Positions 4,714 to 21,325 of a stretch of DNA of 34,034 nt are shown piece after piece; within the stretch, counting starts at the first letter, position 1, and each line of letters begins with the position of its first letter. The stretch covers positions 1 through 34,034 of the forward strand of contig CAMYKI010000028.1 of NCBI GenBank assembly GCA_947258985.1, written 5' to 3'. The translations under genes and the position numbers were made by a program. The DNA is from an uncultured Acidimicrobiaceae bacterium (GTDB taxonomy: Bacteria > Actinomycetota > Acidimicrobiia > Spongiisociales > UBA5794). The notes under the pieces are model-generated. The model saw only the letters and a program-made list of their open reading frames with translations. It did no database searches and had not been told where the DNA came from.

Positions 4714-5874
4714 ATGCAGCTCGGCATTCTTTCTGAATCGACCCCCGGTGAAAGACGCGTCGCGGCGACACCGCAGACGGCAGCAACCTTCATCGAATGG
4801 GGCTGGCAGGTTGACGTCGAATCCGGGGCCGGTACCGAAGCCGGCTTCCCTGATCGACAGTTCACCGAGGTTGGGGCCAACATCGTGGATGGTGCGACGG
4901 CGCGAAACGCCGACATCGTTCTGTGCGTGAATGCGCCTTCGCAAATGGGCGATCTGAAGAGCGGCTCGGCTCTCGTCGGCTTCCTCGACCCGTTCGTCGA
5001 CGGTGAGCTGATCACCACACTCCGCGACCGCGGAGTGAGCGCGTTGGCGGTCGAAGCCATCCCCCGCACCACCCTCGCCCAGAGCATGGATGCCTTGTCG
5101 TCACAGGCGAACATCGGCGGATATGCCGCGGCGCTGCTGGCAGCATCGTCGTCGCCAAAACTTCTGCCGATGATGGTCACCGCTGCCGGCACTATCCCCC
5201 CGTCACGCGCCCTGATCCTCGGCGTCGGCGTGGCTGGCCTCCAGGCGATCGCCACCGCCAGACGGCTCGGTGCAATCGTCTATGCCTATGACATCAGGCC
5301 TGAGACAAAGGAGCAGGTGGAAAGCCTCGGCGCAAAGTTTGTCGCCGCTCCGACCCAGGAAATGGACGAAGGCGGATATGCCAAGGAGGTCGGGCAGGAC
5401 ACCCAGGCGGCCCAACAAGCCGCCCTCGCTTCCCATGTCGCCGAATCCGACATGGTCATTACAACCGCCCAGATCCCGGGGCGGCCGGCGCCGCTGCTGG
5501 TGACGGACGAGATGGTTGCCGCCATGATGCCGGGATCGGTGATCGTCGATATGGCTGCCGGGTCCGGCGGAAACGTAGCTCCCTCGGCGCCGGACACCAT
5601 GGTGGACGTCGGCGGCGTCCACATCTACGGACCGACGAATCTCCCGGCCCAGATTCCGCACGACTCGAGCCGGATGTATGCCCGCAACCTGGTTGCGCTG
5701 CTCGAGCGCACCCGCACAGACGAGGGTTTCCAGATCGACCTCGAAGACGAAATCATTGGCGGAACCACCATCACACACAATGGTGATGTGGTCCATCCGA
5801 GAAGCCGCCAATTGCTCGGTTTGCCTGATCTCGCAGTCGAGCCGACCCAAACCGCGGAAGGAGGCGACGAATGA
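4714..5874 (+). CDS. pntAA: NAD(P) transhydrogenase alpha subunit, soluble part (PntAA)
   Basis: The 386-residue product is the NAD(H)-binding domain I of the proton-translocating transhydrogenase, which moves hydride between NADH and NADP+ at the expense of the proton gradient. The N-terminus (LGILSESTPGERRVAATP) and the Rossmann glycine motif (ALILGVGVAGLQAIATARRLGAIVYAYD, about residues 167-194) match the alanine dehydrogenase/PntA family. It lacks the membrane helices found in single-chain E. coli PntA; these are encoded by the next gene, as in other split three-gene systems. The stop overlaps the next start (ATGA). Confidence 0.93.
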   Translation: MQLGILSESTPGERRVAATPQTAATFIEWGWQVDVESGAGTEAGFPDRQFTEVGANIVDGATARNADIVLCVNAPSQMGDLKSGSALVGFLDPFVDGELITTLRDRGVSALAVEAIPRTTLAQSMDALSSQANIGGYAAALLAASSSPKLLPMMVTAAGTIPPSRALILGVGVAGLQAIATARRLGAIVYAYDIRPETKEQVESLGAKFVAAPTQEMDEGGYAKEVGQDTQAAQQAALASHVAESDMVITTAQIPGRPAPLLVTDEMVAAMMPGSVIVDMAAGSGGNVAPSAPDTMVDVGGVHIYGPTNLPAQIPHDSSRMYARNLVALLERTRTDEGFQIDLEDEIIGGTTITHNGDVVHPRSRQLLGLPDLAVEPTQTAEGGDE

Positions 5875-7522: not shown

Positions 7523-7600
7523 CGACGTGTGGCCCGACCGACGTCTGGAAACTCCCCGACTGGGTCTACCATCACCAATTCGCCTCATCCCCGGGCTCCC

Positions 7601-8488
7601 ATGCTTGAAATCGACACACTCCACAAGGCATACGACGACGTCGTAGCCCTCGATGGCTGTACGTTTCGAGTGCGCCGCGGCCAGCTACTCGGGTTTCTCG
7701 GCCCGAACGGCTCAGGCAAGACAACAACGATGCGGTCGGTTTTCTCCCTTGTGCAGCCCGACAGTGGCGAGGTGCGCTGGGACGGTGCCGTTATCGCCCC
7801 GGAGGCGCGGCTCGGGTTCGGCTACATGCCGGAGCAACGAGGTCTGTATCCGCGGATGAAGGTTGCTCCGCAACTGGTCTACTTCGCCAGGCTCCACGGC
7901 ATTGCCAAGGACGCCGCAGAATCAGCAACGGCCGAATGGCTCGAGAGGCTCGGACTCTCCGACAGAGCCGACAGCAGACTCGAGGAGCTTTCCCACGGCA
8001 ACCAGCAGCGGATCCAACTCGCGGCAGCGCTCATCCATGATCCGGAGTTGCTGGTACTCGATGAACCGTTCTCGGGTCTCGACCCCATCGGCGTTCAGGC
8101 GATGATCGACATCCTCTTGGAGCGAGCTGCGGCAGGCGCTGCCGTTGTTTTCTCCAGTCACCAACTCGACCTCGTCGAGGATCTCTGCGAGGACGTGGTC
8201 ATCGTTGCTGCCGGCAAAGTCGTACTCGCCGGACCGGTGCGCGAGTTGCGCTCCCGCTCGCACCACAGATATCTGGATATCGAGCTGGCACCGCCGGCCG
8301 GCGACCTGGCTGCGGCGTTCGGCGGCTTCGACATCGTCGCCTCTGCCGATGGTCGTGTCAGACTTCGCCTCACCGACGCTGCCCCGTTGCAGCCGCTGAT
8401 CGACACCGCATCGTCCTTGGGGAGGATCCAGCAGTTCAGCTTCACACCCCCCAACCTGTCCGAGGTGTTCCGCGAGGTGGTCGGGTAA
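7601..8488 (+). CDS. ABC transporter ATP-binding protein (NatA/YhaQ type)
   Basis: The 295-residue ATPase has Walker A GPNGSGKT (K40), a Q-loop region near PEQRGLYPRM, the signature variant LSHGNQQRIQLA and Walker B LLVLDEPFSGLDP. The C-terminal ~80 residues form the extension seen in exporters paired with ABC-2/NatB permeases. The family drives export of drugs, sodium or other small solutes; the substrate here is not evident. I chose the ATG at 7601 by homology (MLEIDTLHKAYDDVVALDG); the open frame extends to a GTG at 7529. A TACCAT -10-like box lies at 7567-7572. The stop overlaps the permease start (TAATG). Confidence 0.9.
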   Translation: MLEIDTLHKAYDDVVALDGCTFRVRRGQLLGFLGPNGSGKTTTMRSVFSLVQPDSGEVRWDGAVIAPEARLGFGYMPEQRGLYPRMKVAPQLVYFARLHGIAKDAAESATAEWLERLGLSDRADSRLEELSHGNQQRIQLAAALIHDPELLVLDEPFSGLDPIGVQAMIDILLERAAAGAAVVFSSHQLDLVEDLCEDVVIVAAGKVVLAGPVRELRSRSHHRYLDIELAPPAGDLAAAFGGFDIVASADGRVRLRLTDAAPLQPLIDTASSLGRIQQFSFTPPNLSEVFREVVG

Positions 8489-9663
8489 TGAGTGGCTGGT
8501 CTGCGATCAAGCTCGTGGCGGCCCGGGACTTCCGGGAACGCATCGCCAGCCGCGCCTTTCAGCTGTCGACGGCGCTGACGGTGTTGCTCGTGGTTGGGTT
8601 CATCATGGTCCCCACGTTCATCGATACCGATACGACCGAGGAATGGACGATCGCAATCGTCGGTGATGTGCCGCCCGGCCTGGTCGAGACGGTCGGTGCC
8701 GGAGCAGGCGACGCGGCGACAGCCTCGGCATCCGAGTTCGCTACCCGCGCCGAAGCCGAAGCCGAACTCGAGGACGGCAATGTCGATATCGTCATCGACG
8801 CCTCGGGAACGGTGATTGTTGGCAATTCCACGGATGAACAACTCACAACGCTGGTAGCTGCGGTTCTAGCCTCGTTGGATGTCGCCGAACAAGCGGAGGA
8901 ACTGGGTATCGACGCAACGGCGCTAACCGATCTCTTCTCGGGCGGCTACGCGGTCGTTTCCCTCGACGAGCAACCGGATACGAGCAACGGGGACCGCGCA
9001 TTCGCCTTCTTTGCGACGATCATCCTCTTCATGTCGATCATCACGTACGGTTCCTGGATCCTCATCGGGGTGATCGAGGAGAAGACCAACCGGGTAGTCG
9101 AGGTCGTGCTCGGCACCGTGCGCCCATCTCATCTTCTCGCCGGAAAAGTGCTGGGAATCGGCATCCTGGGCGTCGCCCAGATAGTCCTGATCGGTGTGGT
9201 CGCAATCACCGTTCTCTCGCTACAGGACGCGCTCAACATTCCGGAGGCCGCGCCCAAGGTGCTGGTGTGGGCGTTCATCTGGTACTTGCTTGGATTTGCC
9301 TTCTACGCCGTCGCCTACGCAGCTGCCGGGTCGCTGGTATCTCGCCAGGAAGAGGCCCAGAACGCCGCGTTCCCCCTTACCCTGATGCTCATGGCCTCCT
9401 ACTTCATCGCGTCGTTTTCGATCGCAGGCGAGAACCCGGTCCTGAGGGTGGCCTCACTGCTGCCGATGTTTGCACCGATGACCATGCCGCTGCGAATAGC
9501 CGGCAACGATGCCCAGACATGGGAAGTGGTGGTGTCGGTCGTATTGATGATCGCTGCAACGTATGGGCTGGTCCGCTTCGCCGGGCGGGTCTATGCCGGT
9601 GGGCTCCTCCAATCGGGAAGCCGGGTCAAGTGGAGAGAAGCGTTTCGCGCCTCAGAGGCATAA
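8488..9663 (+). CDS. ABC-2 type exporter permease (NatB-like)
   Basis: The 391-residue product has one N-terminal membrane helix (about residues 24-46), a large external domain (about 50-165) and then five or six membrane segments to the C-terminus. This is the ABC-2/NatB permease architecture. The segment SWILIGVIEEKTNRVVEVVLGTVRPSHLLAGKVLG is typical of the family. It is translationally coupled to the ATPase gene, so the two form a single exporter. Confidence 0.88.
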   Translation: MSGWSAIKLVAARDFRERIASRAFQLSTALTVLLVVGFIMVPTFIDTDTTEEWTIAIVGDVPPGLVETVGAGAGDAATASASEFATRAEAEAELEDGNVDIVIDASGTVIVGNSTDEQLTTLVAAVLASLDVAEQAEELGIDATALTDLFSGGYAVVSLDEQPDTSNGDRAFAFFATIILFMSIITYGSWILIGVIEEKTNRVVEVVLGTVRPSHLLAGKVLGIGILGVAQIVLIGVVAITVLSLQDALNIPEAAPKVLVWAFIWYLLGFAFYAVAYAAAGSLVSRQEEAQNAAFPLTLMLMASYFIASFSIAGENPVLRVASLLPMFAPMTMPLRIAGNDAQTWEVVVSVVLMIAATYGLVRFAGRVYAGGLLQSGSRVKWREAFRASEA

Positions 9664-9737
9664 CCCACCATCCGACGGACATCTCTACGAGATCGCGACC
9701 ATTGTCAACTACCATCGCATTCCGACCCTGAGGGACC

Positions 9738-10889
9738 ATGAAGCTTTCGATCACCAACCGAAGTCCGTACTCCCCGACCGTCGAATTCGTTGAACGGAAA
9801 GGCACCGGTCATCCGGACACCATCTGCGACTATCTCGCCGAGGAGTTGGCCCGCGAGCTCGCTACCGAATATCTGACGCACACGGGCGCGGTGCAGCATT
9901 TCAACGTGGACAAGGCAATCCTGGCTGCCGGGTCGGTCGACGTCGGGTTCGGCGGTGGCACCCACACCCGGCGTTCGCGTCTGGTTCTCGTGGGAAAGGC
10001 CGACTCGCTGCAGGAGTGGGCACCGGATCCCGAAGAACTTGCCGAGAAGTACAAGAGCAAGCTCCTGGCGCTTCTCCCCGACGCCACTCCCGAGGCTTTC
10101 GACGTCGAAATCTGGCTCAACCAGTCGTCGGCAGATCTTGCCTCGGTAGTGACCACGCGAGAAGACGATGTTCCCCTGGCCAACGACACGAGTTTCGCCG
10201 CGGTGTCCCTGCCCCGATCTCCCCTGGAAAACACCGTCTACCAGATCGAGAGAACCCTCAACAGTGCCGACTTTCGCGCCAACTTACCGATCGGGCGCGA
10301 CATCAAAGTCATGGGAGCTCGGATCGATGGTTCAACACACGTGACGGTCGCATGCCCCGTCCTGGCGCGCCGTGTCGCCAACAGGTCGGAATACGACCAG
10401 GTACTCAATCAGGTCGAGTTGGCTGCCGGCCGCATCGCCGCTGAGGAACTCGAACACGGCGTGACCATCAAAGTGAACCAGGCCGACCAGGACGACAGCG
10501 CCTACCTCACCCTCACCGGAACATCGGCAGAAGCCGGGGATGACGGGCAGGTCGGCCGAGGTAACCGATTCGGCGGCCTCATTACCCCCTACCGTCCAAT
10601 GAGCCTCGAAGCCGCCGCCGGCAAGAACCCTGCTGCCCACGTGGGAAAGACCTACCACGCTGCCGCCGCCGACATCGCCGCCCGGCTGCAGACGGAGACT
10701 GCGCTCTCGGAATCAACGATCAGGATGCTCAGCTCCATCGGCAGACCGGTCTCCAACCCCGAAGCCGTGCATATCGAGGTCGTGGGCGAGGCAGATCACG
10801 ATCAGGTGCAGATGATCGTCAGTGAGTGCCTGGAGGATTGGCGCGGAGTGCGCGATCGCCTCATTGCCGGTCACTACGAGCTGTATTGA
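9738..10889 (+). CDS. mat: Archaeal-type S-adenosylmethionine synthetase (methionine adenosyltransferase)
   Basis: The 383-residue product matches the archaeal MAT family (PF01941), not bacterial MetK. The ERKGTGHPDTICD segment lies at residues 19-31, the GDDGQVGRGNR segment near 268-277, and TPYRPMSLEAAAGKNP near 283-298, followed by VGKTYH. These are the most conserved blocks of the archaeal enzyme, which makes S-adenosylmethionine from methionine and ATP. The start has a Shine-Dalgarno (TGAGGGA, 9729-9735) and a TACCAT -10-like box at 9710-9715, so it has its own promoter. The stop is only 6 nt from the convergent alkA-like gene. The family is secure; whether this is the cell's only SAM synthetase cannot be seen here. 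Confidence 0.87.
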   Translation: MKLSITNRSPYSPTVEFVERKGTGHPDTICDYLAEELARELATEYLTHTGAVQHFNVDKAILAAGSVDVGFGGGTHTRRSRLVLVGKADSLQEWAPDPEELAEKYKSKLLALLPDATPEAFDVEIWLNQSSADLASVVTTREDDVPLANDTSFAAVSLPRSPLENTVYQIERTLNSADFRANLPIGRDIKVMGARIDGSTHVTVACPVLARRVANRSEYDQVLNQVELAAGRIAAEELEHGVTIKVNQADQDDSAYLTLTGTSAEAGDDGQVGRGNRFGGLITPYRPMSLEAAAGKNPAAHVGKTYHAAAADIAARLQTETALSESTIRMLSSIGRPVSNPEAVHIEVVGEADHDQVQMIVSECLEDWRGVRDRLIAGHYELY

Positions 10890-10895
10890 GCCGGC

Positions 10896-11789
10896 TTAGC
10901 CCCGACTGATCACGCTCTTGGGGCTGCGTGGCCCGTAGCGGGGTGCGTGTGCTCCGGAGAGCTTGAGAAGAATCATTGCTCTGCGCCGGTACGGTCGGAA
11001 TGGTTCGAGAAGCTCCTCCATGCGGTCGTCGGTGCCCCTAGGTTCCCCCGCAAGCATCCAGGACACCAGATTTGGCAGGTGATAGTCGCCTCGCGGGATC
11101 GCATCCCGGTCGCCCCAAACAGGCCCCAATATCGAACCGACGGTCCATTCGCCGATGCCGCGGACCGCGAGCAGCCGCTGCACAGCGGCGGCCCGCTCCA
11201 TATCGACGATCTCTTCGAGGCGTCTCGCCCGACGTGCGATCTCGATGACAATGCCGGCGCGAGCGCGTTCCACACCGAACGGGTGAAGGTCCTCGTATGA
11301 CATCGCGGCGACGGCGTCCGGGGACGGCGGGAGCCGGAGACCGGCGTCGCCCGGTGCCGGTTCGCCAACCGCGGCCACCAGCTCCCGGTAACTCCGCTTG
11401 GCCTCGTCGGTTGTCACGCGCTGACCGAGGACCGTTGGCAGGAGCGAATCGAACACCCGGCCGGTACTCCCCAGCCTGAGACCGGTGTGCCGAAGGTGGA
11501 GCTCCCGGAGCGGGCCCGTGGAAACCGGAAAAGATGCGGGGTCGTCATCCAATCCGATGGTGCGCGGCACCGCGTCGATGGCTTCAACCGCCCCCGGCCC
11601 GATGGCAGTGGCCTCGATCGCCCCCGCAGAGAGCGACACAGTGACTGTTGCCGGTCCGCCGGCAGTGCGCAACGCATAGGTTCCGCCATTTGGCGACAGG
11701 CGGAGCGCGGCGCTAGTCCCGGGCAGGGAGAATCGCATAGTCGTCCGCGGATCGAGCGGACTGGAGAGCAGCCACGAGCGGGTGATCAT
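10896..11789 (-). CDS. DNA-3-methyladenine glycosylase, AlkA/HhH-GPD family
   Basis: A base-excision repair glycosylase removing alkylated bases. It has a helix-hairpin-helix (LLAVRGIGEWTVGSI) and, downstream, the catalytic Asp in a GDYHLPN segment, the usual HhH-GPD order. An AlkA N-terminal-like region precedes them. The frame opens at an ATG at 11828, but I prefer the ATG at 11789 (297 residues). AlkA-like proteins begin just before the ITRSWLLSSPLD-type strand, and a TACCGT box lies 6 nt upstream of this ATG. The first 13 residues of the longer version look non-homologous. Confidence 0.82.
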   Translation of the reverse strand: MITRSWLLSSPLDPRTTMRFSLPGTSAALRLSPNGGTYALRTAGGPATVTVSLSAGAIEATAIGPGAVEAIDAVPRTIGLDDDPASFPVSTGPLRELHLRHTGLRLGSTGRVFDSLLPTVLGQRVTTDEAKRSYRELVAAVGEPAPGDAGLRLPPSPDAVAAMSYEDLHPFGVERARAGIVIEIARRARRLEEIVDMERAAAVQRLLAVRGIGEWTVGSILGPVWGDRDAIPRGDYHLPNLVSWMLAGEPRGTDDRMEELLEPFRPYRRRAMILLKLSGAHAPRYGPRSPKSVISRG

Positions 11790-11795
11790 TTCCTC

Positions 11796-11801
11796 ACGGT
11801 A
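11796..11801 (-). promoter_or_regulatory. Candidate -10 box (TACCGT) for the glycosylase gene
   Basis: On the minus strand TACCGT is followed by 6 nt and the ATG at 11789. The same hexamer precedes the TPM-domain gene. It supports the shorter start; alternatively it is a chance match inside the longer reading frame. Confidence 0.35.
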
Positions 11802-11958
11802 GGAGAACGGCCGGATCTCCACCAACATCTGCGAACTCGCAGCAATAGCCGGTAATCGGTCACCGACATACTCGAATGCGGCTGCTAGTTTCGCTGCAGT
11901 TGCCGGGATGGGGCACCGATAACGTCCCGAGAAGCTTTGCCGAGCCGAGGGGTTTGCT

Positions 11959-12852: not shown

Positions 12853-13920
12853 ATGGAGCAACCAACCGTTCCCATCGACCGGATTTCCGCGTTTGCGGTT
12901 GAGTTGCCCTTGCGGCACCGTTTTGCGACGGCTGCAACCGTCCTCGACAAACGTAGCCTGATCCTGGTCAGGGTCGACTCAGGACCTGTGACCGGCTGGG
13001 GGGAGGCCGCCCCGTTCCCCGGCCATACCAGCGAGTCGATGGCCGACGTGTGGGACGCGCTCGAAGACGCCGTCACAAGAAGTGTCGCCGGATCCAACGC
13101 CGGTGCGACGGGGATCGCAGGTGCTGCTTTGGCCCAGGCGGTTGACGACGTCGCGGCCCGGGCGGCGGGACTGCCGCTCGCCGAATACCTTGGAGCTTGC
13201 GAGCAGATCTGGGCAAGTGCCGCCATCGGTCTGCTACCGGACGGTACGCCTGACCGGGAAGCAGTCGCCGGGGTCGCCGCGGCCGGTTACCGCCACGCCA
13301 AGCTAAAGATCTCGCCGGAGACCGACGTCGCTTCGCTTGCCGAGCTGGTGACCGAATTTGACTCGCTTGCGTTTGGGCTCGACGCCAATGGGTCCCTGAG
13401 CGCGCTGCCACCATCACATCTCGAGGCCCTCGACGACCTCCACCTCGGCTATCTGGAGCAGCCGGGACCATTCGGCGATCTCGAATGGCACCGCAGCCTC
13501 CGGAACAACCTCTCCACCCCGATTGCGCTCGATGAATCCGCGGACACCAGCGACGCAGTGCGCCAGATCATCGCCACCGGCGCCGCCGACATCATCAATC
13601 TGAAGACGGGGCGTTTCGGGACCACGGCGTCACTTGCTCTCGCCCGGGAAGCCAACTCCGCAGGCTTGAGCGCTCGCGTCGGTGGCCTCATCGAGAGCGG
13701 GGTGGGACGGGCGCATGCCGTTGCCCTGGCAGGGTGCCCCGAGTTCCGGATCGTTGGTGACATCGCCGCCTCAAATCTGTACTTCGACAACGACCTCGTT
13801 TACCCGCATTGGGAGCTTGCAGATGGGCGGCTGGTGCCGACTTCTGAACCGGGTATCGGAGTCGAGGTGGACGAGGAACTGGTCTCCGGCATGGCGTTCT
13901 GGTCGTTCGTCGCTGAGTAG
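12853..13920 (+). CDS. menC: o-Succinylbenzoate synthase (MenC-like, enolase superfamily)
   Basis: The 355-residue enolase-superfamily enzyme dehydrates SHCHC to o-succinylbenzoate in menaquinone synthesis. The catalytic set is complete and regularly spaced: K150-x-K152 (AKLKIS), metal ligands D177 (GLDANG), E202 (YLEQP) and D227 (ALDES), and K251 (INLKTGRFG). The late segment VGGLIESGVGRAHAVALAG...GDIAAS...DLV matches actinobacterial OSBS. N-succinylamino acid racemase or dipeptide epimerase activity cannot be excluded from sequence, and no other men genes are in view. Confidence 0.83.
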   Translation: MEQPTVPIDRISAFAVELPLRHRFATAATVLDKRSLILVRVDSGPVTGWGEAAPFPGHTSESMADVWDALEDAVTRSVAGSNAGATGIAGAALAQAVDDVAARAAGLPLAEYLGACEQIWASAAIGLLPDGTPDREAVAGVAAAGYRHAKLKISPETDVASLAELVTEFDSLAFGLDANGSLSALPPSHLEALDDLHLGYLEQPGPFGDLEWHRSLRNNLSTPIALDESADTSDAVRQIIATGAADIINLKTGRFGTTASLALAREANSAGLSARVGGLIESGVGRAHAVALAGCPEFRIVGDIAASNLYFDNDLVYPHWELADGRLVPTSEPGIGVEVDEELVSGMAFWSFVAE

Positions 13921-13938
13921 GACCGCTTGCTCAGCGGC

Positions 13939-13944
13939 TACCGT
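13939..13944 (+). promoter_or_regulatory. Candidate -10 box (TACCGT) for the TPM-domain gene
   Basis: TACCGT, 7 nt (tgaggcc), ATG at 13952. It lies only 19 nt after the menC stop and could give a separate leaderless transcript. The intervening tgagg could also act as a weak Shine-Dalgarno. Confidence 0.4.
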
Positions 13945-13951
13945 TGAGGCC

Positions 13952-16267
13952 ATGGCAAGAAGAGTTGTTGAAATCCTCCTGGTGGTCGGTTTTGTTGTGA
14001 CCGCATCGGCGGGAGCCCTGGCACAATCTGAGCCGGTCGAGCCGGCCAATTGTGGAACCTATGAAGGCGTCGTCTGTCGCGGTTGGTTCTCCGACGATGC
14101 CGGCGTTGTCGAAGACGACGATACGATCGAGTCCGCCGTCGGCGCCCTGGTGGTGCGCTACGGCAACGAGATTGCGGTCGTGACGGTGAGTGAGAGCCCG
14201 TATGGGTCCCCGCTGGAATTCGCCCAGGATCTTGGCAACGCCTGGGGCGTCGGCGATGCCGAACGCCAGGATGGCATCGTCGTATTGGTCGATGTCGGGA
14301 ACCGGCGAACCGAGATGACAGCCGGTCCCGGCGTCCCAGAACTCGACTACACGAGGATCACCGGTGCCGGCAATTCGTTCTTTGGAAGGGGCGATTTCGA
14401 CTCGGGGATCATCGCCATCGTTGGCAGCCTGGAGCAGGAGCTGGCGTCACTCGACGGCAGCGCGGGCGCCGGCGAGTCCGTGGTCACTCCCGGAGTTGAG
14501 GTAGCGCCGTCCACCGATAGCCCGCCCCCGGCCGGTCTCGTTGTCGGGGCGCTTGCCACCGCCGGCCTGGTGGGTGGTGCGATCGGACTTGCTGCGGCGA
14601 GAACCCGCCGCCGGGATCGTATCTCTCGGGAGCGGGCCGAATTGGTCGACGGCGATGTGGATGCCCTCGAGCCAGCCGGACACGAGTTGCCCCGTATTGC
14701 CGACTACGCAATCCCCTACCGGGGCACACCGCCACGCATCGAAACCAGACCTGCACTCCTTGCTCTCGAACGCCTCCAGGCCGGGACCGAACCCCATGAC
14801 CCGGATGCCGTCGAGGCCATATGGGGCAACGGTCTGGTCGCGGTGATCGATCGCGACCGGCTGGTTGCGGAGACGGACGTTCCACTGGAACTGCGGGTGT
14901 CCGACGAGCAACCCATTCTCGAAGGAGCCCTGCAGACGGCGATCCGGGATGCGGTCGACGTGGATCCCGGCGATGATGCCGAGTTCGAGGTGAAACGGCA
15001 GGAACTACTGCGTATCATCGCCAGCCTTCGCCCCCATCGGATCGCCAACGCCCGACTTCGCATCGGCCACACCATTACCGACCGTACCGTCAAGACCGCG
15101 CTCGGGTTTGCCACTCTCACCGATTCCGGGGAGCGGTACCTCGAAGCCGGACCGGTCCTCGACACCACCTTGACGCTGGAGGAATCTCTGGCCGAACTCG
15201 AGCTCGTCTACGCCACGGCCAAGAACAAGGCGAGCAAGATGGAAGCGCTGTACGAACAGTTGCCATCCTCTACGACAAGGCCAGCGGTGGCGGCGGCTCT
15301 GGCAGATCTGTCGGACGATGTCGATGCCTCCTACCGCCGCTACGAGGCGTTGCGGCAGACACTGGAGACAGAGGGCGCTGCGCTCAGCCGGGACGGACTG
15401 TCGATTCCGGCCGTCTCTGCTCTGTTGTTGATGAATAACGACGGCGATGACGTAGGCGACTTCATCACCGCATACGAGGCGAACCGGGGCCGGGGTATCG
15501 ATGCGGAGACTGCGGTCGAGTACGCCCTCGCCGGTCTCACCCACCCTGGGGAGATCGGGCGGATCCGCAACGAGGCCGACCGGCTCGGCATCCCGATCTC
15601 GTTGACCGCGGCCTTGCTCCGCCGCCGGGATGACGGGCCCGAGGTGTACCGCGCCCTTGCAGATCAGCTCGCAGGAGCGGGCGTCAAAGGCGACGCGCGG
15701 CGGACAATCGCAGCTGTGCTGGCAATATCGCTGGAGCCGGCGCAGGCCATGCGCCGGTGGAGCGAGGCCCGGCAGGCCCTTGCCGCCCTGGGATTGATCG
15801 GGGTCTATGCCGATGTCGCCGCGGCGTTCGGCGCGTCCGACCCTCGCGGCTCACGGGCCTTCGCCCTGGCGTACGCCGCACAGCGGCAGGCGCTGAGCCG
15901 CAGCAGCATCGACGACGCCGACCGATTCGCTCCGGAGCTGGCTCACGACGGTACCGGGCGGCAACGCGACTCGTGGAGTGGAAAGCCCATTCCTCGGGGA
16001 TTGGGTCACTTCGACCCTTACACGCTGCTTTTCTATCACTGGATCATCACCAAGGGCCATCGTGGCGCCTACGGCTGGGAGCCGGTGTACCGGGACGAGT
16101 CCTGGTCGCGTGACTCCAATTCGTGGTGGGGCGGCGGCGGTGGCTTCGGCAGCTCCGGTTCCTGGGGCGGCGGCTCATCGTGGGGCGGCTCCTGGAGTGG
16201 CGGGAGTTTCGGGGGCGGCTTCGGTGGAGGCGGTGGCTTCTCAGGAGGCGGCGGCAGCGGGTGGTAG
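13952..16267 (+). CDS. Large TPM-domain membrane protein with Gly/Ser/Trp-rich C-terminal tail
   Basis: The 771-residue product has a signal peptide (cleavage probably after AGALAQ) and then a TPM domain (about residues 45-160). The TPM domain includes the segment DAERQDGIVVLVDVGNRRTEMTAGPGV typical of TPM_phosphatase/YgcG-like proteins. A second membrane helix lies at about 194-213, followed by a basic RTRRRDR stop-transfer and a ~500-residue cytoplasmic region rich in helices. The last 47 residues (725-771) are almost only Gly, Ser, Trp and Phe, as in many TPM proteins. The family has been linked to photosystem repair in plants and to membrane stress in bacteria; the function here is unknown. 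The open frame begins at 13682 inside menC, but the signal peptide fixes the start at 13952. Confidence 0.8.
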   Translation: MARRVVEILLVVGFVVTASAGALAQSEPVEPANCGTYEGVVCRGWFSDDAGVVEDDDTIESAVGALVVRYGNEIAVVTVSESPYGSPLEFAQDLGNAWGVGDAERQDGIVVLVDVGNRRTEMTAGPGVPELDYTRITGAGNSFFGRGDFDSGIIAIVGSLEQELASLDGSAGAGESVVTPGVEVAPSTDSPPPAGLVVGALATAGLVGGAIGLAAARTRRRDRISRERAELVDGDVDALEPAGHELPRIADYAIPYRGTPPRIETRPALLALERLQAGTEPHDPDAVEAIWGNGLVAVIDRDRLVAETDVPLELRVSDEQPILEGALQTAIRDAVDVDPGDDAEFEVKRQELLRIIASLRPHRIANARLRIGHTITDRTVKTALGFATLTDSGERYLEAGPVLDTTLTLEESLAELELVYATAKNKASKMEALYEQLPSSTTRPAVAAALADLSDDVDASYRRYEALRQTLETEGAALSRDGLSIPAVSALLLMNNDGDDVGDFITAYEANRGRGIDAETAVEYALAGLTHPGEIGRIRNEADRLGIPISLTAALLRRRDDGPEVYRALADQLAGAGVKGDARRTIAAVLAISLEPAQAMRRWSEARQALAALGLIGVYADVAAAFGASDPRGSRAFALAYAAQRQALSRSSIDDADRFAPELAHDGTGRQRDSWSGKPIPRGLGHFDPYTLLFYHWIITKGHRGAYGWEPVYRDESWSRDSNSWWGGGGGFGSSGSWGGGSSWGGSWSGGSFGGGFGGGGGFSGGGGSGW

Positions 16268-17046
16268 TAGAAAACGTCTCTTCTGCGTCCAACCCGCGCA
16301 TCAAAGCGTTCGCCCGTCTCAAGAAGGCACGGGCACGCTCCGAGACCGGCCTGTTCCTCATCGAGGGCGAACGCGAGATCGAACGGGCGTTGGCGGCCGG
16401 TGTCGCCGTCGAGACTCTGCTCATCTGCGACGATCTGTTGACTCAGCCTGCTCCCCAAGTCGGCGGTTCGATTGACGTCTTGAGAACCACTCCGGCGCCA
16501 ATGGAGCGGGTGTCGGTGCGGCAAAACCCATCGGGCCTGATCGCCGTAGCCCGACAGTTCGATACGGACCTCGCCGCGCTGCGTCTGGGACCTCGGCCCC
16601 TGGTCCTCATCGCCGAGGCGGTCGAGAAGCCGGGCAACCTGGGGGCGATGATGCGCACCGCCGACGCCGCCGGGGCCGACGCCGTGGTCATCGCAGATGC
16701 GGCGACCGACGTCTTCAACCCCAACGTCGTCAGAGCATCTCAGGGAGCGCTCTTCCTTGTCCCGCTGGCGATCGCTTCGACCACCGAGGCTATCGAATGG
16801 GCGGTGACCAGATCTCTGAATCTCGTCGGCGGCTTCCCCGACGGAGCAACCGATCTGTGGGATGTGGATCTCGGACAACCGACGGCAGTCATCGTCGGCG
16901 CAGAGGATGTTGGTTTGAGCACGGCATGGAGCGAGGTGGCGGTAAGGGCTCGGATCCCCATGGCAGGTCGCACCGATAGCCTCAACGCTTCGGTCTCAGC
17001 CGCCCTGATGTTGTACGAAGCCGTGCGCCAACGCCGCTCCGCATGA
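16261..17046 (+). CDS. TrmH/SpoU-family RNA 2'-O-methyltransferase
   Basis: The 261-residue SPOUT (trefoil-knot) methyltransferase uses SAM to methylate a ribose in rRNA or tRNA. An N-terminal substrate-binding domain (NPRIKAFARLKKARARSETGLFLIEGEREIERAL) precedes the three SpoU motifs: AEAVEKPGNLGAMMRTADAAG, AVIVGAEDVGLS and IPMAGRTDSLNASVSAALMLYEA. The start is a GTG at 16261, overlapping the last 7 nt of the TPM gene. An AGGAGG at 16243-16248, formed by Gly-tail codons of the TPM gene, lies 12 nt upstream. The frame is open further upstream, but that part translates the Gly-rich tail out of frame. The modified nucleotide cannot be told. Confidence 0.87.
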   Translation: MVVENVSSASNPRIKAFARLKKARARSETGLFLIEGEREIERALAAGVAVETLLICDDLLTQPAPQVGGSIDVLRTTPAPMERVSVRQNPSGLIAVARQFDTDLAALRLGPRPLVLIAEAVEKPGNLGAMMRTADAAGADAVVIADAATDVFNPNVVRASQGALFLVPLAIASTTEAIEWAVTRSLNLVGGFPDGATDLWDVDLGQPTAVIVGAEDVGLSTAWSEVAVRARIPMAGRTDSLNASVSAALMLYEAVRQRRSA

Positions 17047-17054
17047 CCCGCCCC

Positions 17055-17123
17055 AAAAGCACGCTCCCAACCCAGGGTTCACAACCGGCAAAAAGCACGC
17101 TCCCAACCCAGGGTTCACAACCG
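17055..17123. repeat. 33-nt tandem repeat, two perfect copies (period 36)
   Basis: Two identical 33-nt copies, 17055-17087 and 17091-17123, are separated by the 3 nt GCA. Each begins AAAAGCACGCTCCC, has the short palindrome AACCC-A-GGGTT in its middle and ends CACAACCG. They fill the gap between two convergent genes (RNA methyltransferase and lipoprotein). On the minus strand the unit reads as a short hairpin followed by GGGAGCGTGCTTTT, so it might help end transcription of the lipoprotein gene. Confidence 0.75.
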
Positions 17124-18188
17124 TTACCAGCTTGCGAAGATAAAGCCGTCGCCGAGGGATCCGGCTTGGCCGGCGCCCTGCCACCGCACGGTGTTCTCGC
17201 CGTCGACGTAGATGAGGAACTTGCCAGTTGGGTCGTAGCCACCCCACAACGATCCGGTCTCGACCGGGAAGTTGGCCAACACCTCCCCGACAGTGGAGAA
17301 CACGACACCCTCTGTTTCGGCGACCTCAGTGTCACCATAGGTGTGGAGGAATCCCACGAGATTGCCGCTCGCCTGCGTCCCGATGCCGTCGAGGAATTGA
17401 TGGACCCCAACCCAGGGGAGCACCGTGACATGACTTGGTTCATCCTCAGCGAGTACGTGCGTGGCTAGAGCAGTCACCTCTTTGAGCTGGGTGGTCCAGT
17501 AGAGCTGCGATCCGTCGCGGGTCCAGGCGGCAGCACCGTTCGGGAAACCCAGAGACGGTTCATCGATCCAGACACCGGCACCATCGGTCGACCGCGCTCC
17601 GGGATCGTGAACCTCGAGCGAGTATCCGACAGACGCAAAACGCTCATCTGCGGGAGAAGGCGAGATCGTCCAACCGGTGTTCCACGGCTGAGACTCGGTG
17701 TACGGATCGTCACCTAGATCGCCACCGGCTTCGACATAGAAGAGCCTCCCCGCCGCGGGCTCGCAACAGTCGCTGAGACCAACTACCGAGCCGTCGCGGT
17801 TCCTCCAAGCACCTACCAGAACATTCGGTGGCATCTCCTCGGCAGCCGCCATCTGCTCCGCGGTCCCGGTCTGGCCGAATACATGCAGGATCTCACCCGT
17901 GAGCGTGTCGACCTCAACTGCAAAGTAGTCATCGGTGATGGCGACGAACGTTGCCGGGCGCCCATCGTCGATTGTGGGTGTTGCGGGGACCGTCGTGGCG
18001 GTAGAGGAGTCCGGAGCTTCTGTCGTGGTCGGGGGGGCTGTTGTGGTCGGCGCCGCGGTGGTCGTCACCGTCGTTGAGGTCTGCTCCGGCGCGGATGTCG
18101 CCGTGGAGGCGGTCGTGGACGTTGGAGAGGCATCACCGCCGCATGCAGCGAGCAGCATCAGACCTGCGATAGCTATCTTCGTGCGCAC
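17124..18188 (-). CDS. Secreted lipoprotein with Thr-rich linker, function unknown
   Basis: The 354-residue product has a short signal ending in LMLLAAC (lipobox), then a ~55-residue Thr/Pro/Ala-rich linker, then a globular domain with repeated beta-strand-like segments. Examples are FVAITDDYFAVEVDTLTGEILHVFG, AAAWTRDGSQLYWTTQ and GGYDPTGKFLIYVDGENTVRWQG, which suggest a beta-propeller-like fold. I do not recognise a specific family. The chosen GTG at 18188 gives the signal MRTKIAIAGL and has AAGGG (18200-18204) 11 nt upstream; a GTG at 18200 is the alternative. The gene is convergent with the RNA methyltransferase gene. Confidence 0.7.
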   Translation of the reverse strand: MRTKIAIAGLMLLAACGGDASPTSTTASTATSAPEQTSTTVTTTAAPTTTAPPTTTEAPDSSTATTVPATPTIDDGRPATFVAITDDYFAVEVDTLTGEILHVFGQTGTAEQMAAAEEMPPNVLVGAWRNRDGSVVGLSDCCEPAAGRLFYVEAGGDLGDDPYTESQPWNTGWTISPSPADERFASVGYSLEVHDPGARSTDGAGVWIDEPSLGFPNGAAAWTRDGSQLYWTTQLKEVTALATHVLAEDEPSHVTVLPWVGVHQFLDGIGTQASGNLVGFLHTYGDTEVAETEGVVFSTVGEVLANFPVETGSLWGGYDPTGKFLIYVDGENTVRWQGAGQAGSLGDGFIFASW

Positions 18189-18278
18189 GTCTGTGACCAC
18201 CCTTCTGTCCGGCAGGAACGATAGTGATACATCGGTTCGGCCTCACCAGACTTGATGTCCCGCTTCGTTCCCGACGGG

Positions 18279-18284
18279 TAGTGT
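18279..18284 (+). promoter_or_regulatory. Candidate -10 box (TAGTGT)
   Basis: TAGTGT, 7 nt (cgactgc), ATG at 18292. No Shine-Dalgarno is present, consistent with a leaderless mRNA. Confidence 0.45.
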
Positions 18285-18291
18285 CGACTGC

Positions 18292-19071
18292 ATGCTCGAC
18301 TACATGCAGATCGTTCGGTCCGAATCCGCCCGTTTCTACGATTTGGTTGCTGCCACGGATTCCTCTCTCGCAGTACCTACATGCCCCGGATGGTCGGTTG
18401 CGGATCTCACCTGGCATCTCGCCGAGGTGCAGTACTTCTGGGCAGCCATTGTCGGTCGGCTCCTGCTCGAGCCGGGATCGATCCCGGATCTCGAGCGGCC
18501 TCGGGATGAAGCTCTTCCCGACCTCTTCCGGGAGCAGTCGCAGCGCGTTGTCGAGGCATTGCAGCGCAGGAACCCCGCCGACGAATGCTGGAGCTGGCAC
18601 AAATCCGGCGACACCGTTGGATGGGTCCGCCGTCGGCAAGCGCACGAAGCCCTCATCCATCGGGTGGATGCGGAATTGGCTGCCGGCAACGTGCCAGCCA
18701 TCGGAGAAAACATCGCTGCCGATGGCGTCGAGGAGGTGCTCAGCGTCTACCTGGACGCCGGTGATCTTCCTGAGTGGGCGACGTTCCATGGTGATGGGTC
18801 GAGCGCTCGACTCCGTTTGGATGATGGCGCATCCTGGACGATGCTCCTCGGCCGCTTCACCGGGACGAGCCCTCAGTCGGGCACAACTTACGACGAACCT
18901 GCGATGTGCCTCAGCGACCTCGACGCCACGCCGGATGTAGAGCTAAACGGGTCGGCGAGCAGTCTCGACCTGTGGTTGTGGGGCCGGGGGCCGGTCGACG
19001 ACATCGAGGTCGTCGGCAAAGCCGAGATGGTCCCGCTGATTCGCGAGATGGCCCGCGCCGGTACTCAATAG
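18292..19071 (+). CDS. Maleylpyruvate isomerase family (mycothiol-dependent, DinB-fold) protein
   Basis: The 259-residue product has the N-terminal DinB-like four-helix metal-binding domain. The opening ...TCPGWSVADLTWHLAEVQYFW contains metal ligand H42, and RRRQAHEALIHRVDAE supplies the later His pair. A C-terminal MDMPI-like domain (SGSASSLDLWLWGRG...) follows. The family (TIGR03083) contains mycothiol-dependent isomerases and many thiol-transferases of unknown substrate. No aromatic-degradation genes are nearby, so a true maleylpyruvate isomerase role is unlikely or unproven. Confidence 0.82.
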   Translation: MLDYMQIVRSESARFYDLVAATDSSLAVPTCPGWSVADLTWHLAEVQYFWAAIVGRLLLEPGSIPDLERPRDEALPDLFREQSQRVVEALQRRNPADECWSWHKSGDTVGWVRRRQAHEALIHRVDAELAAGNVPAIGENIAADGVEEVLSVYLDAGDLPEWATFHGDGSSARLRLDDGASWTMLLGRFTGTSPQSGTTYDEPAMCLSDLDATPDVELNGSASSLDLWLWGRGPVDDIEVVGKAEMVPLIREMARAGTQ

Positions 19072-19079
19072 GACCAGGT

Positions 19080-19622
19080 CTACGGCTTGGTCATCTCCCA
19101 AATGCCGTCGTCACGAAGCATGTGATCGATCAGGCGCAGCCTGGCGGCGGCGCTGCCGTGGTTGGCGGCGGCATTCGTCTTGATCAGCACCGGAGGGCCG
19201 TGGCGCTCGATCGAGGGCACATCGGAGACACCGCGTTCTCTTGCTTCGGCGACGGTCGACTCCAGCTGCGCCAAACCGGCCCCGTCGGCTTCCGTTAGAA
19301 CGGCCGTTGCATCGATGGTGGCGACGTGCGCCGCTACTGCCAGGGTCTTGTCTGCCCCCGGCTTGTCACGCTCCTGATAGACGAGGGTGAGCAGCGCCCG
19401 TACGAACTTCTCGTGGTTCTCGGGATAGGCGACCCGTACCGCTTCGCACGCCGCCAATGCCCGGATGTCCGGCGCACCCGTGGCCAGGTCGTCGTTGGTA
19501 AACGCACGCCACTCGACGCTTACCGACACATTCTTGTCCTGCGAAGCCCGGATCAGCACCGTGTAGATGCGCCAAACGTCGTAACTATCGAAGTTGAAGT
19601 GGACCGTCCCGGTGAATTCCAT
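19080..19622 (-). CDS. DsbA/FrnE-like thioredoxin-fold protein lacking CXXC
   Basis: The 180-residue product resembles the DsbA/2-hydroxychromene-2-carboxylate isomerase fold: a first strand VHFNFDSYDVWRIY, a helical insertion (ALAACEAVRVAYPENHEKFVRALLTLVYQE) and a C-terminal cis-Pro region (VSDVPSIERHGPPVLIKT). The CXXC active site is replaced by a segment without Cys, so it should not act as a disulfide oxidoreductase. There is no signal peptide. It is convergent with the DinB-fold gene (8 nt apart) and divergent from the exonuclease gene. The fold assignment is moderate; the function is unknown. Confidence 0.6.
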   Translation of the reverse strand: MEFTGTVHFNFDSYDVWRIYTVLIRASQDKNVSVSVEWRAFTNDDLATGAPDIRALAACEAVRVAYPENHEKFVRALLTLVYQERDKPGADKTLAVAAHVATIDATAVLTEADGAGLAQLESTVAEARERGVSDVPSIERHGPPVLIKTNAAANHGSAAARLRLIDHMLRDDGIWEMTKP

Positions 19623-19629
19623 CGGACGC

Positions 19630-19635
19630 AGCGTA
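19630..19635 (-). promoter_or_regulatory. Candidate -10 box (TACGCT, minus strand)
   Basis: Read on the minus strand, TACGCT is followed by 7 nt (gcgtccg) and the ATG at 19622. It is one half of a compact divergent promoter region. Confidence 0.45.
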
Positions 19636-19658
19636 ACCGGCAGGACGTTCGGCGATTC

Positions 19659-19686
19659 TTGACATCGAACGTGTGTTCGGTATCGT
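19659..19686 (+). promoter_or_regulatory. Complete promoter (TTGACA-N16-TATCGT) for a leaderless exonuclease gene
   Basis: A perfect -35 TTGACA (19659-19664), a 16-nt spacer, and a -10 TATCGT (19681-19686), then 7 nt and ATG at 19694. This is the clearest case in the window where both promoter boxes are present and transcription must start at the start codon. It decides between the ATG at 19694 and the upstream GTG at 19673, which would lie between the boxes. Confidence 0.65.
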
Positions 19687-19693
19687 CTCCGCC

Positions 19694-21325
19694 ATGGCGT
19701 TACCCGTGCAGAGAACGTTCGACGACCTCAGCACCCCGCTGCACGAGGTTGCATTCTGCGTTCTCGACCTCGAAACGACGGGCGGCTCTCCCGCTACGTG
19801 CGAGATCACCGAAGTTGGCGCCGTCAAGTACGTGGCAGGGGAACTCGTCGGTACCTTCGACACATTGGTCAATCCCGGTGCGGCCATCCCGCCCACGATC
19901 ACGGTCCTTACCGGCATTACCCAGGCGATGGTGATCGATGCCCCGCGCATCGAAGAGGTGCTGCCCTCTCTGCTCGAGTTCATCGGCACAGCCGTGATCG
20001 TGGGACACAACGTCCGATTCGACATGTCCTTCCTCAATGCCGCCGCGGTACGTCTTGGCTACGGCAAAATCCCCAACCCAACTTCCGATACTCTCGGCCT
20101 TGCCAGGCGACTCGTGCGTGAAGAGACCAGGGGCTTGAACCTGCAGACTCTGGCGGCCCACTTCCGGTCCCCGGTAACCCCCAATCACCGGGCACTTGCC
20201 GACGCCAGGGCCACGGCGCATGTGTTCTGGGGCTTGCTCGAACGCGCCGGAACCATCGGCGTGAGCGACCTCGACGAGCTGTTGCGGCTACCCACGGCTC
20301 GAGGGGCACCGCACTACGACAAGATCGAACTCACCGAGCGTCTCCCCCGCAAACCGGGCGTGTACATGTTCCGCGATCGCGACCAGAACATCATCTACGT
20401 CGGCAAAGCCAAGAACCTACGCACCAGAGTTCGGTCGTACTTCTACGGCGACTCCAGGCGTTCCGTTGGACAGATGTTGCGCGACCTCTCCGACATCGAT
20501 TTCCGGGTCTGCGCAACGGAGCTCGAAGCCGAAGTCACGGAGATCCTATTGATCTATCACCACGTCCCGAGGCTCAATCGACGCTCTCGCCCACCAAAAT
20601 CGCCACAGTTTGTGAAACTGACCGCAGAACGCTTTCCCCGGCTTTCGATTGTGCGCACCTTGCGCGACGACGGCTGCCTCTACCTCGGTCCCTTTCGCAG
20701 CAGACGCATCGCCAACACGGTCGTTGCGGCGATTTGGGATGCTATCCCGATACGCCGGTGTATGACGACCGGCGGCAAACGCAGCCCCGCATGCAGCTTT
20801 GCCCAGCTCGGGGTCGCGATGTGCCCCTGCGACGGCTCGGTGCCGGAAGCCAACTACCAGGACGTGGTCTCCCGGCTGCGGCACGGAATAGAAGAGGATC
20901 CGGCAGAACTCCTCGATCCCCTGGTCGCCCGGCTCCGCGAGTACGCCAGGACGGCACGTTTTGAGGAAGCGGCAGATCTGCGGGATCGCCACCGGGCCCT
21001 GTCGCTGGCCCTCGAGAACCGACGGAGTTGGGGGGTCCTGCGCCGGGCCGGCTTGCTGTGGGCTGAGGACTCGAACGGCGACTCGGTACTCGTCGAGAGC
21101 GGGCGGCTTGTCGGCGCCTGGGGACCCGACGACCAACCGCCGCTGACAACGACGGCGACGGTCGAGGCGGCCCCCCACCTGGTGCCAGAGACCGTCGGTC
21201 AGGCCGAGGAGGCTCGACTTGTGTGGAAATGGCTCGACCGACCAGACGTTCGCATCGTCGAGTCAACTCATCCGCTCGCCACATCGCGGCACCCGGTCGC
21301 CAGGCTCACCTCTCTGGCGGGCTAG
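19694..21325 (+). CDS. DEDDh 3'-5' exonuclease fused to UvrC-like GIY-YIG endonuclease half
   Basis: The 543-residue product begins with a DnaQ/epsilon-like exonuclease. The DEDDh residues are visible: D25 and E27 in LDLETTG, the VGHNVRFD motif, and the HRALADARATAH motif. A UvrC/Cho N-terminal half follows, with GIY-YIG residues G222-Y224 (GVY) and Y235-G237 (IYVG), then KNLRTRVRSYF. Four Cys (C356, C367, C377, C379) match the UvrC cysteine cluster, and a UVR-like helix pair (RLREYARTARFEEAADLRDRHRAL) follows. The C-terminal RNase H-like nuclease and HhH domains of UvrC are absent. Such DnaQ-UvrC fusions are known in actinobacteria (for example Rv2191 of M. tuberculosis) and are linked to DNA repair. 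Confidence 0.88.
   Translation: MALPVQRTFDDLSTPLHEVAFCVLDLETTGGSPATCEITEVGAVKYVAGELVGTFDTLVNPGAAIPPTITVLTGITQAMVIDAPRIEEVLPSLLEFIGTAVIVGHNVRFDMSFLNAAAVRLGYGKIPNPTSDTLGLARRLVREETRGLNLQTLAAHFRSPVTPNHRALADARATAHVFWGLLERAGTIGVSDLDELLRLPTARGAPHYDKIELTERLPRKPGVYMFRDRDQNIIYVGKAKNLRTRVRSYFYGDSRRSVGQMLRDLSDIDFRVCATELEAEVTEILLIYHHVPRLNRRSRPPKSPQFVKLTAERFPRLSIVRTLRDDGCLYLGPFRSRRIANTVVAAIWDAIPIRRCMTTGGKRSPACSFAQLGVAMCPCDGSVPEANYQDVVSRLRHGIEEDPAELLDPLVARLREYARTARFEEAADLRDRHRALSLALENRRSWGVLRRAGLLWAEDSNGDSVLVESGRLVGAWGPDDQPPLTTTATVEAAPHLVPETVGQAEEARLVWKWLDRPDVRIVESTHPLATSRHPVARLTSLAG

Follow-up and report, generated by a model that had tools for sequence, protein, structure and literature searches.

The uncultured acidimicrobiial bacterium studied here appears to use an archaeal-type methionine adenosyltransferase (MAT, PF01941) as its housekeeping SAM synthetase. 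We consider it probable, from sequence comparisons and a structural model, that this enzyme stands in place of metK by non-orthologous displacement, with a later reversal in two sublineages. The gene is located at 9738..10889 (+) of the window, that is, the whole stretch of 34,034 nucleotides that was analyzed, and its host, known from a metagenome-assembled genome of 3.6 Mb and 93% completeness, belongs to the Acidimicrobiia (Actinomycetota). SAM is the universal methyl donor and its synthetase is essential; the enzyme normally separates the domains, with MetK in bacteria and eukaryotes and PF01941 in archaea. The archaeal form has been called restricted to Archaea (PMC2481427). A single bacterial family displays here the whole series, from metK in a given slot to MAT in the same slot, both enzymes together, and a new metK elsewhere with the slot left empty, so that the order of steps in the replacement of an essential enzyme becomes testable. 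If the pathway is annotated from MetK alone, these bacteria are overlooked, and in Acidimicrobiia MetK serves poorly as a universal marker.

The archaeal-type MAT of the window

The gene runs from ATG to TGA and codes for 383 amino acids. Its only Pfam match was PF01941 (E 6.7e-103, 345 bits versus a cut-off of 27), spanning residues 11-378 or 368 of the 383 residues, so the profile search left the protein in the family to which the earlier note had assigned it. None of the NCBIfam MAT models (PRK04439.1-1 to -5) was reached, as the best score was 365 bits where 435 were required, and by these sub-threshold scores the protein is classified as a divergent branch beyond the curated subfamilies, still within PF01941. 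The MetK domains PF02772 and PF02773 gave no Pfam match in this protein and BLAST against a MetK of the same family gave no convincing similarity (E 0.010, 25% over 176 aa). Sequence matches in the PDB were to archaeal MATs only (E 3e-61 to 8e-70, 34-36% identity). The AlphaFold model, obtained with 27 homologues, had a pLDDT of 89.8 and was closest by fold to the MAT structures of M. jannaschii, P. furiosus and S. solfataricus (TM 0.90-0.94), compared with a TM of 0.56-0.66 for MetK-type enzymes.

Residue equivalences were established by alignment to 6s81 and conservation was scored over 39 acidimicrobiial rows, with the roles described for the active site of archaeal MAT (PMC8727953, PMC3853416). 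The GHPD motif and the full archaeal active-site set are present, all codons being on the forward strand. H25 (9810..9812), the equivalent of the catalytic histidine (His30 in P. furiosus MAT, His14 in E. coli MetK), was invariant in the 39 rows. The H54-F55-N56 codons (9897..9905) include the counterparts of His59 and Asn61 of archaeal MAT, with N56 invariant and H54 found in 33/39. The alignment also located the flexible-loop residues D133-L134 (10134..10139; Asp141/Leu142 in P. furiosus MAT), N149 (10182..10184; by motif, Asn161 of T. kodakarensis MAT), the ribose-binding aspartate D188 (10299..10301; Asp198 in P. furiosus MAT) and the stretch from Y256 to D268 (10503..10541), with the adenine-stacking tyrosine (Tyr268) and the ribose/methionine aspartate (Asp280 of P. 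furiosus MAT). With the single exception of H54, the listed residues were conserved throughout. Given the fold matches and the presence of all these residues, it is very likely that the protein makes SAM from ATP and methionine by archaeal-type MAT chemistry.

Upstream of the gene, the Shine-Dalgarno sequence mentioned by the earlier note exists as GAGGG at 9730..9734 (+), but it is weak and closely spaced, only 3 nt before the ATG. The promoter-like box of the same note was not recovered, as no sigma70-type consensus promoter was found in 9400-11000. No SAM riboswitch or other known RNA was found in the window.

Distribution of the two SAM synthetases

The rest of the genome was searched for metK, as had been suggested, and PF02773, the C-terminal domain of MetK, was not found anywhere in the window genome, where the sole match to PF02772 (E 0.57) is noise. 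One PF01941 gene is present. With MetK not found in a genome 93% complete, the window MAT would be the only SAM synthetase of its genome, and the same seems to hold for the genus, in which all seven genomes contain PF01941 and the MetK domain was not found. The proposal of a housekeeping role fits with this, with the good conservation in the family and with the native composition of the gene.

Within the host family (50 genomes) PF01941 was found in 33 and MetK in 11, one of them having both (G066), while 7 had neither. Hence MetK was not found in 32/33 of the PF01941 genomes of the family, among them some with high completeness (G011 100%, G026 98%, G028 97%, G009 96%). Nearly all of these genomes are incomplete draft assemblies (MAGs), so single absences are weak evidence. 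Within the limits of such incomplete genomes, the native bacterial enzyme appears to be missing where PF01941 is present, as expected from a non-orthologous gene displacement. In the whole class (395 genomes), 37 genomes had genuine PF01941 and 333 had MetK above the cut-off, a patchy presence that agrees with the earlier statement that PF01941 is uncommon in bacteria. Besides the host family, genuine PF01941 was found only in two genomes of family f7, where MetK was not found, and in two of f2, with MetK. Both enzymes together were present only in G066, G131 and G149. The PF01941 ORF of one genome (G064:C188:10108-10344) also matches PF02773 weakly (E 5.8e-4), perhaps a trace of a deep common origin of both MAT families.

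The seven family genomes with neither enzyme are G018, G033 and G070, all from genus g13, plus G015, G020, G022 and G069. Genus g13 lacks both in 3/3 genomes, with completeness of 94% (G018), 79% and 73%, and the MAT gene is absent from the slot region of G018 (the slot is described below). These genomes either have missing contigs or contain an undetected third route to SAM, and with seven such cases, including G018 and the whole of g13, an undetected MAT is also possible in the window genome. A PF02772 search in the genomes without either enzyme gave no match. Two candidates for a third MAT were inspected by eye and discarded: the 1.2-kb gene in the slot of G015 is a serine-hydrolase-like ORF (SxxK motif), and in the slot of G018 there are instead nucleoside-phosphorylase-, cystathionine-synthase- and kynureninase-like genes.

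A slot shared by metK and MAT

A point beyond the earlier note is that the window MAT occupies the slot that metK holds in sister genera. On the left, the slot is preceded by a pntA-like gene (AlaDH/PNT; 4714..5874, +), an anchor conserved in MAT-, MetK- and empty-slot genomes, and by pntB (PF02233; 5678..7522, +), whose true start is probably later than that of the ORF since the domain match begins at residue 165. An ABC transporter ATPase (7529..8488, +) is directly upstream of the slot and an ABC-2 permease (8488..9663, +) forms its left edge, ending 74 bp before the MAT start codon. The right edge in the window is a HhH-GPD DNA glycosylase-like gene (10896..11828, -); in many other genera a kynureninase lies between. 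The downstream syntenic anchors are a TPM-domain protein, a SpoU rRNA methylase (itself a SAM user) and a DnaQ/GIY-YIG protein (13682..21325, +, with genes on both strands between them). A CDC48-like double AAA ATPase (23612-25606), with weak CDC48 N/2 matches, is also syntenic downstream in several family members. The names kynureninase, nitroreductase, metF and metH were assigned by reading the sequences and are not profile-based.

The neighborhood of MAT is nearly always the same in PF01941 genomes, and it recurs in >20 genomes. The upstream order is pntA-pntB-(nitroreductase)-(ABC ATPase-permease)-MAT and the downstream order MAT-(kynureninase)-HhH-GPD-(septum formation)-TPM-SpoU-DnaQ-AAA, where brackets mark members that some genera lack. 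In four genomes of two genera, G025 (g20) and G017, G032 and G068 (g12), this slot is occupied by bacterial metK. G025 has the permease, 120 bp, metK, 14 bp, kynureninase and HhH-GPD, and in G032 the order is permease, 74 bp, metK and HhH-GPD, to be compared with permease, 74 bp, MAT and HhH-GPD in the window. In f7, G042 contains a nitroreductase-metK pair and G346 a MAT beside an inverted ABC-nitroreductase group. The pntB-nitroreductase-SpoU locus of G131 contains neither metK nor MAT, its MAT being elsewhere. A gap of 1.2-1.3 kb after MAT in several genera was considered as a possible remnant of metK and turned out, by eye, to be the kynureninase.

Trees of the upstream and downstream flanks had MetK- and MAT-slot genomes intermixed, without sorting by slot state beyond kinship. 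They agree in the large clades with a ribosomal-operon tree of 18 markers, in which several deep nodes have no firm order. G034 has two distinct genes for ribosomal L2 and its branch in the first tree was very long; it is probably a contaminated bin and was left out of the final species tree. A neighborhood that is vertically inherited, and in which the slot gene alone differs, points to a displacement in situ between metK and the archaeal-type MAT, as far as the sequences indicate.

The exchange seems to have also run in the opposite direction. The ribosomal tree places three genomes, G012 and G029 (g7) and G061 (g4), in the midst of PF01941 genomes, yet they have MetK and PF01941 was not found in them. 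Their MetK, together with that of G066 (g7), forms a separate clade joined with f8 (100/100) and shares only 51-52% identity with the MetK found in the slot of g12. This metK is adjoined by metF, with metH behind in G012 and G029, where the contig reaches. The slot is empty in G012 and G029, nitroreductase being followed by TPM, and also in G061, with 38 bp between nitroreductase and kynureninase at the place where its g4 mate G009 has MAT. G066 has both genes, MAT in the slot and metK linked to metF, and is likely the expected intermediate of the reversal. In addition, the slot is empty in genus g8 (G013, G030), with an older-type MetK elsewhere.

The displacement probably proceeded as follows. 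An ancestor within the host order would have gained the archaeal-type MAT gene long ago, and the gene would have come to lie at pntAB - nitroreductase - ABC - [slot] - kynureninase/HhH-GPD, the place that metK also occupies. Descendants would then have kept either metK or MAT, whether by replacement or by way of a tandem from which one copy was lost. Later, two sublineages would have reversed the exchange, with a different metK beside metF (and metH) and MAT gone from the slot. For the middle step, an ancient possession of both enzymes by the ancestor of the order, with one lost per lineage and the slot derived from a metK-MAT tandem, is a serious candidate to which we give slightly less than an even chance. 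G131 and G149 still carry both enzymes, three families of the order contain MAT, with a branching compatible with the species tree, the distance ratios given below are similar across families, and f7 has both states (G042 and G346). However, no tandem was found, the locus of G131 lacks either gene, and many losses are needed. Repeated replacement in situ by homologous recombination of short fragments with conserved flanks, by which MAT would have passed from one relative to another without any tandem stage, seems possible though rather doubtful. The slot is exactly shared, with similar spacing after the ABC permease for both genes (~50-120 bp), and the family requires a minimum of 2 to 5 changes of state. 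On the other hand, MAT divergence scales with ribosomal divergence and the large subclades agree; any exchanged fragment must be short, since the flank trees show no grouping by slot state other than that due to kinship. We lean slightly towards dual possession with loss over short-range replacement. More tentatively, and on balance unlikely, the slot downstream of pntAB might be a swap site where metK and MAT were exchanged more than once by short-range recombination, with later reversal via a metF-metK-metH cassette; if true, nature would here be re-enacting the replacement of an essential gene, with the intermediate stages still living.

Displacement, by whichever route, has to be weighed against two further explanations. 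The PF01941 protein could be an accessory enzyme and the real metK be missing from the assembly. PF01941 may indeed be accessory in Streptomyces plasmid clusters or as the second enzyme of Geobacter and Cupriavidus, MetK is also present in 18 of 26 genomes tested of other bacteria with PF01941, and the window genome is only 93% complete. We regard this as very improbable, given that MetK is absent from all the genus members and from all but one of the family's genomes with PF01941, including several with a completeness of 96-100%, that the slot is common to the housekeeping metK of sister genera, and that the catalytic residues are intact. An artefact of assembly or binning, with an archaeal contig placed in a bacterial genome, is hardly conceivable even if all the data are metagenome-assembled. 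The 34-kb contig has typically actinobacterial genes (mycothiol-type MDMPI, septum formation, DUF222) and its neighborhood recurs across the family as described. Furthermore, the window MAT is 62-81% identical to its homologues within the host family and at most about 45% beyond the class, and its GC3 of 0.75 and codon-position GC are like those of the neighbor genes.

Origin of the gene and other bacterial PF01941

A tree of PF01941 proteins, also suggested by the earlier note, placed the window MAT in a purely acidimicrobiial clade. In this tree the acidimicrobiial MATs group as a single clade (100/100) on a long stem (1.4), inside no sampled archaeal group, and no close archaeal relative was found in the sampled tree. 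Grouping this clade with other bacterial PF01941 was not rejected (p-AU 0.29). MAT and ribosomal distances correlate within the family (Spearman 0.71, the pairs not being independent) and their ratio has a median of 1.6 within the family, 1.46 to f7 and 1.98 to f2. Neither nesting in an archaeal clade nor foreign composition, as would characterize a recent archaeal transfer, was found, and the acquisition looks old. Regarding a phage origin, the window MAT had no match in phage records. The matches in IMG/VR were distant (32-35%), their joining with the acidimicrobiial clade in the first tree was flagged as a meeting of long branches, and these sequences were left out of the second MAT tree. 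These viral-labelled contigs (L137-L145) code for a PF01941-like protein of ~300-320 aa, 32-35% identical, with a shorter C-terminus.

The archaeal MATs of M. jannaschii, S. solfataricus, P. furiosus and T. kodakarensis resemble the window MAT in fold, approximate length and active-site residues. The latter differs in forming a deep separate clade, in the HFN instead of HHN at the His/Asn motif and in its bacterial host. Archaeal-type MAT in bacteria is already known; for its sole use and same-slot exchange in Acidimicrobiia we found no description in the open-licence literature. Geobacter has an archaeal-type SAM synthetase isozyme beside the classical MetK (PMC545781, 2004), whereas in the window genome no MetK was found. 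An exchange in situ with an undisturbed neighborhood is known for L30/L15 in Thermus, a xenologous gene displacement (Omelchenko et al. 2003, as summarized in PMC1274311); by that summary orthologues were exchanged there, while here the two proteins have no convincing BLAST similarity. In eukaryotes, MAT and MATX hardly ever occur together, a pattern attributed to transfer or to differential loss (PMC3923989). They are likewise complementary, but MATX is a paralogue of the eukaryotic MAT and the abstract of that work gives no locus evidence.

Among 23 non-acidimicrobiial bacteria with PF01941, 18 also had MetK and it was not found in 5: two Aminicenantes, two Desulfurobacteriaceae and one other Aquificota bin. 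The Aminicenantes and Desulfurobacteriaceae (G395-G398) resemble the window genome in that no MetK domain was found and PF01941 is the apparent sole MAT of these possibly incomplete genomes, although their PF01941 proteins belong to other clades than the acidimicrobiial MAT. PF01941 is also found in Aquificota, Brocadia, Aminicenantes and others, and on plasmids of Cupriavidus, Burkholderia, Bosea, Methylocystis and Streptomyces. Four loci come from genomes with PF01941 plus two MetK-type genes (L063 in G399, L065 in G400, L121 in G415 and L109 in G412), that is, three apparent SAM synthetases. On two Streptomyces plasmids (L050, L054) and one of the rickettsial endosymbiont Candidatus Megaera (L055), MAT is beside sugar-phosphate/xylose isomerase-like and Gfo/Idh/MocA-type oxidoreductase genes, often with a NUDIX gene. 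Perhaps the plasmid MATs have a specialized, natural-product-like role.
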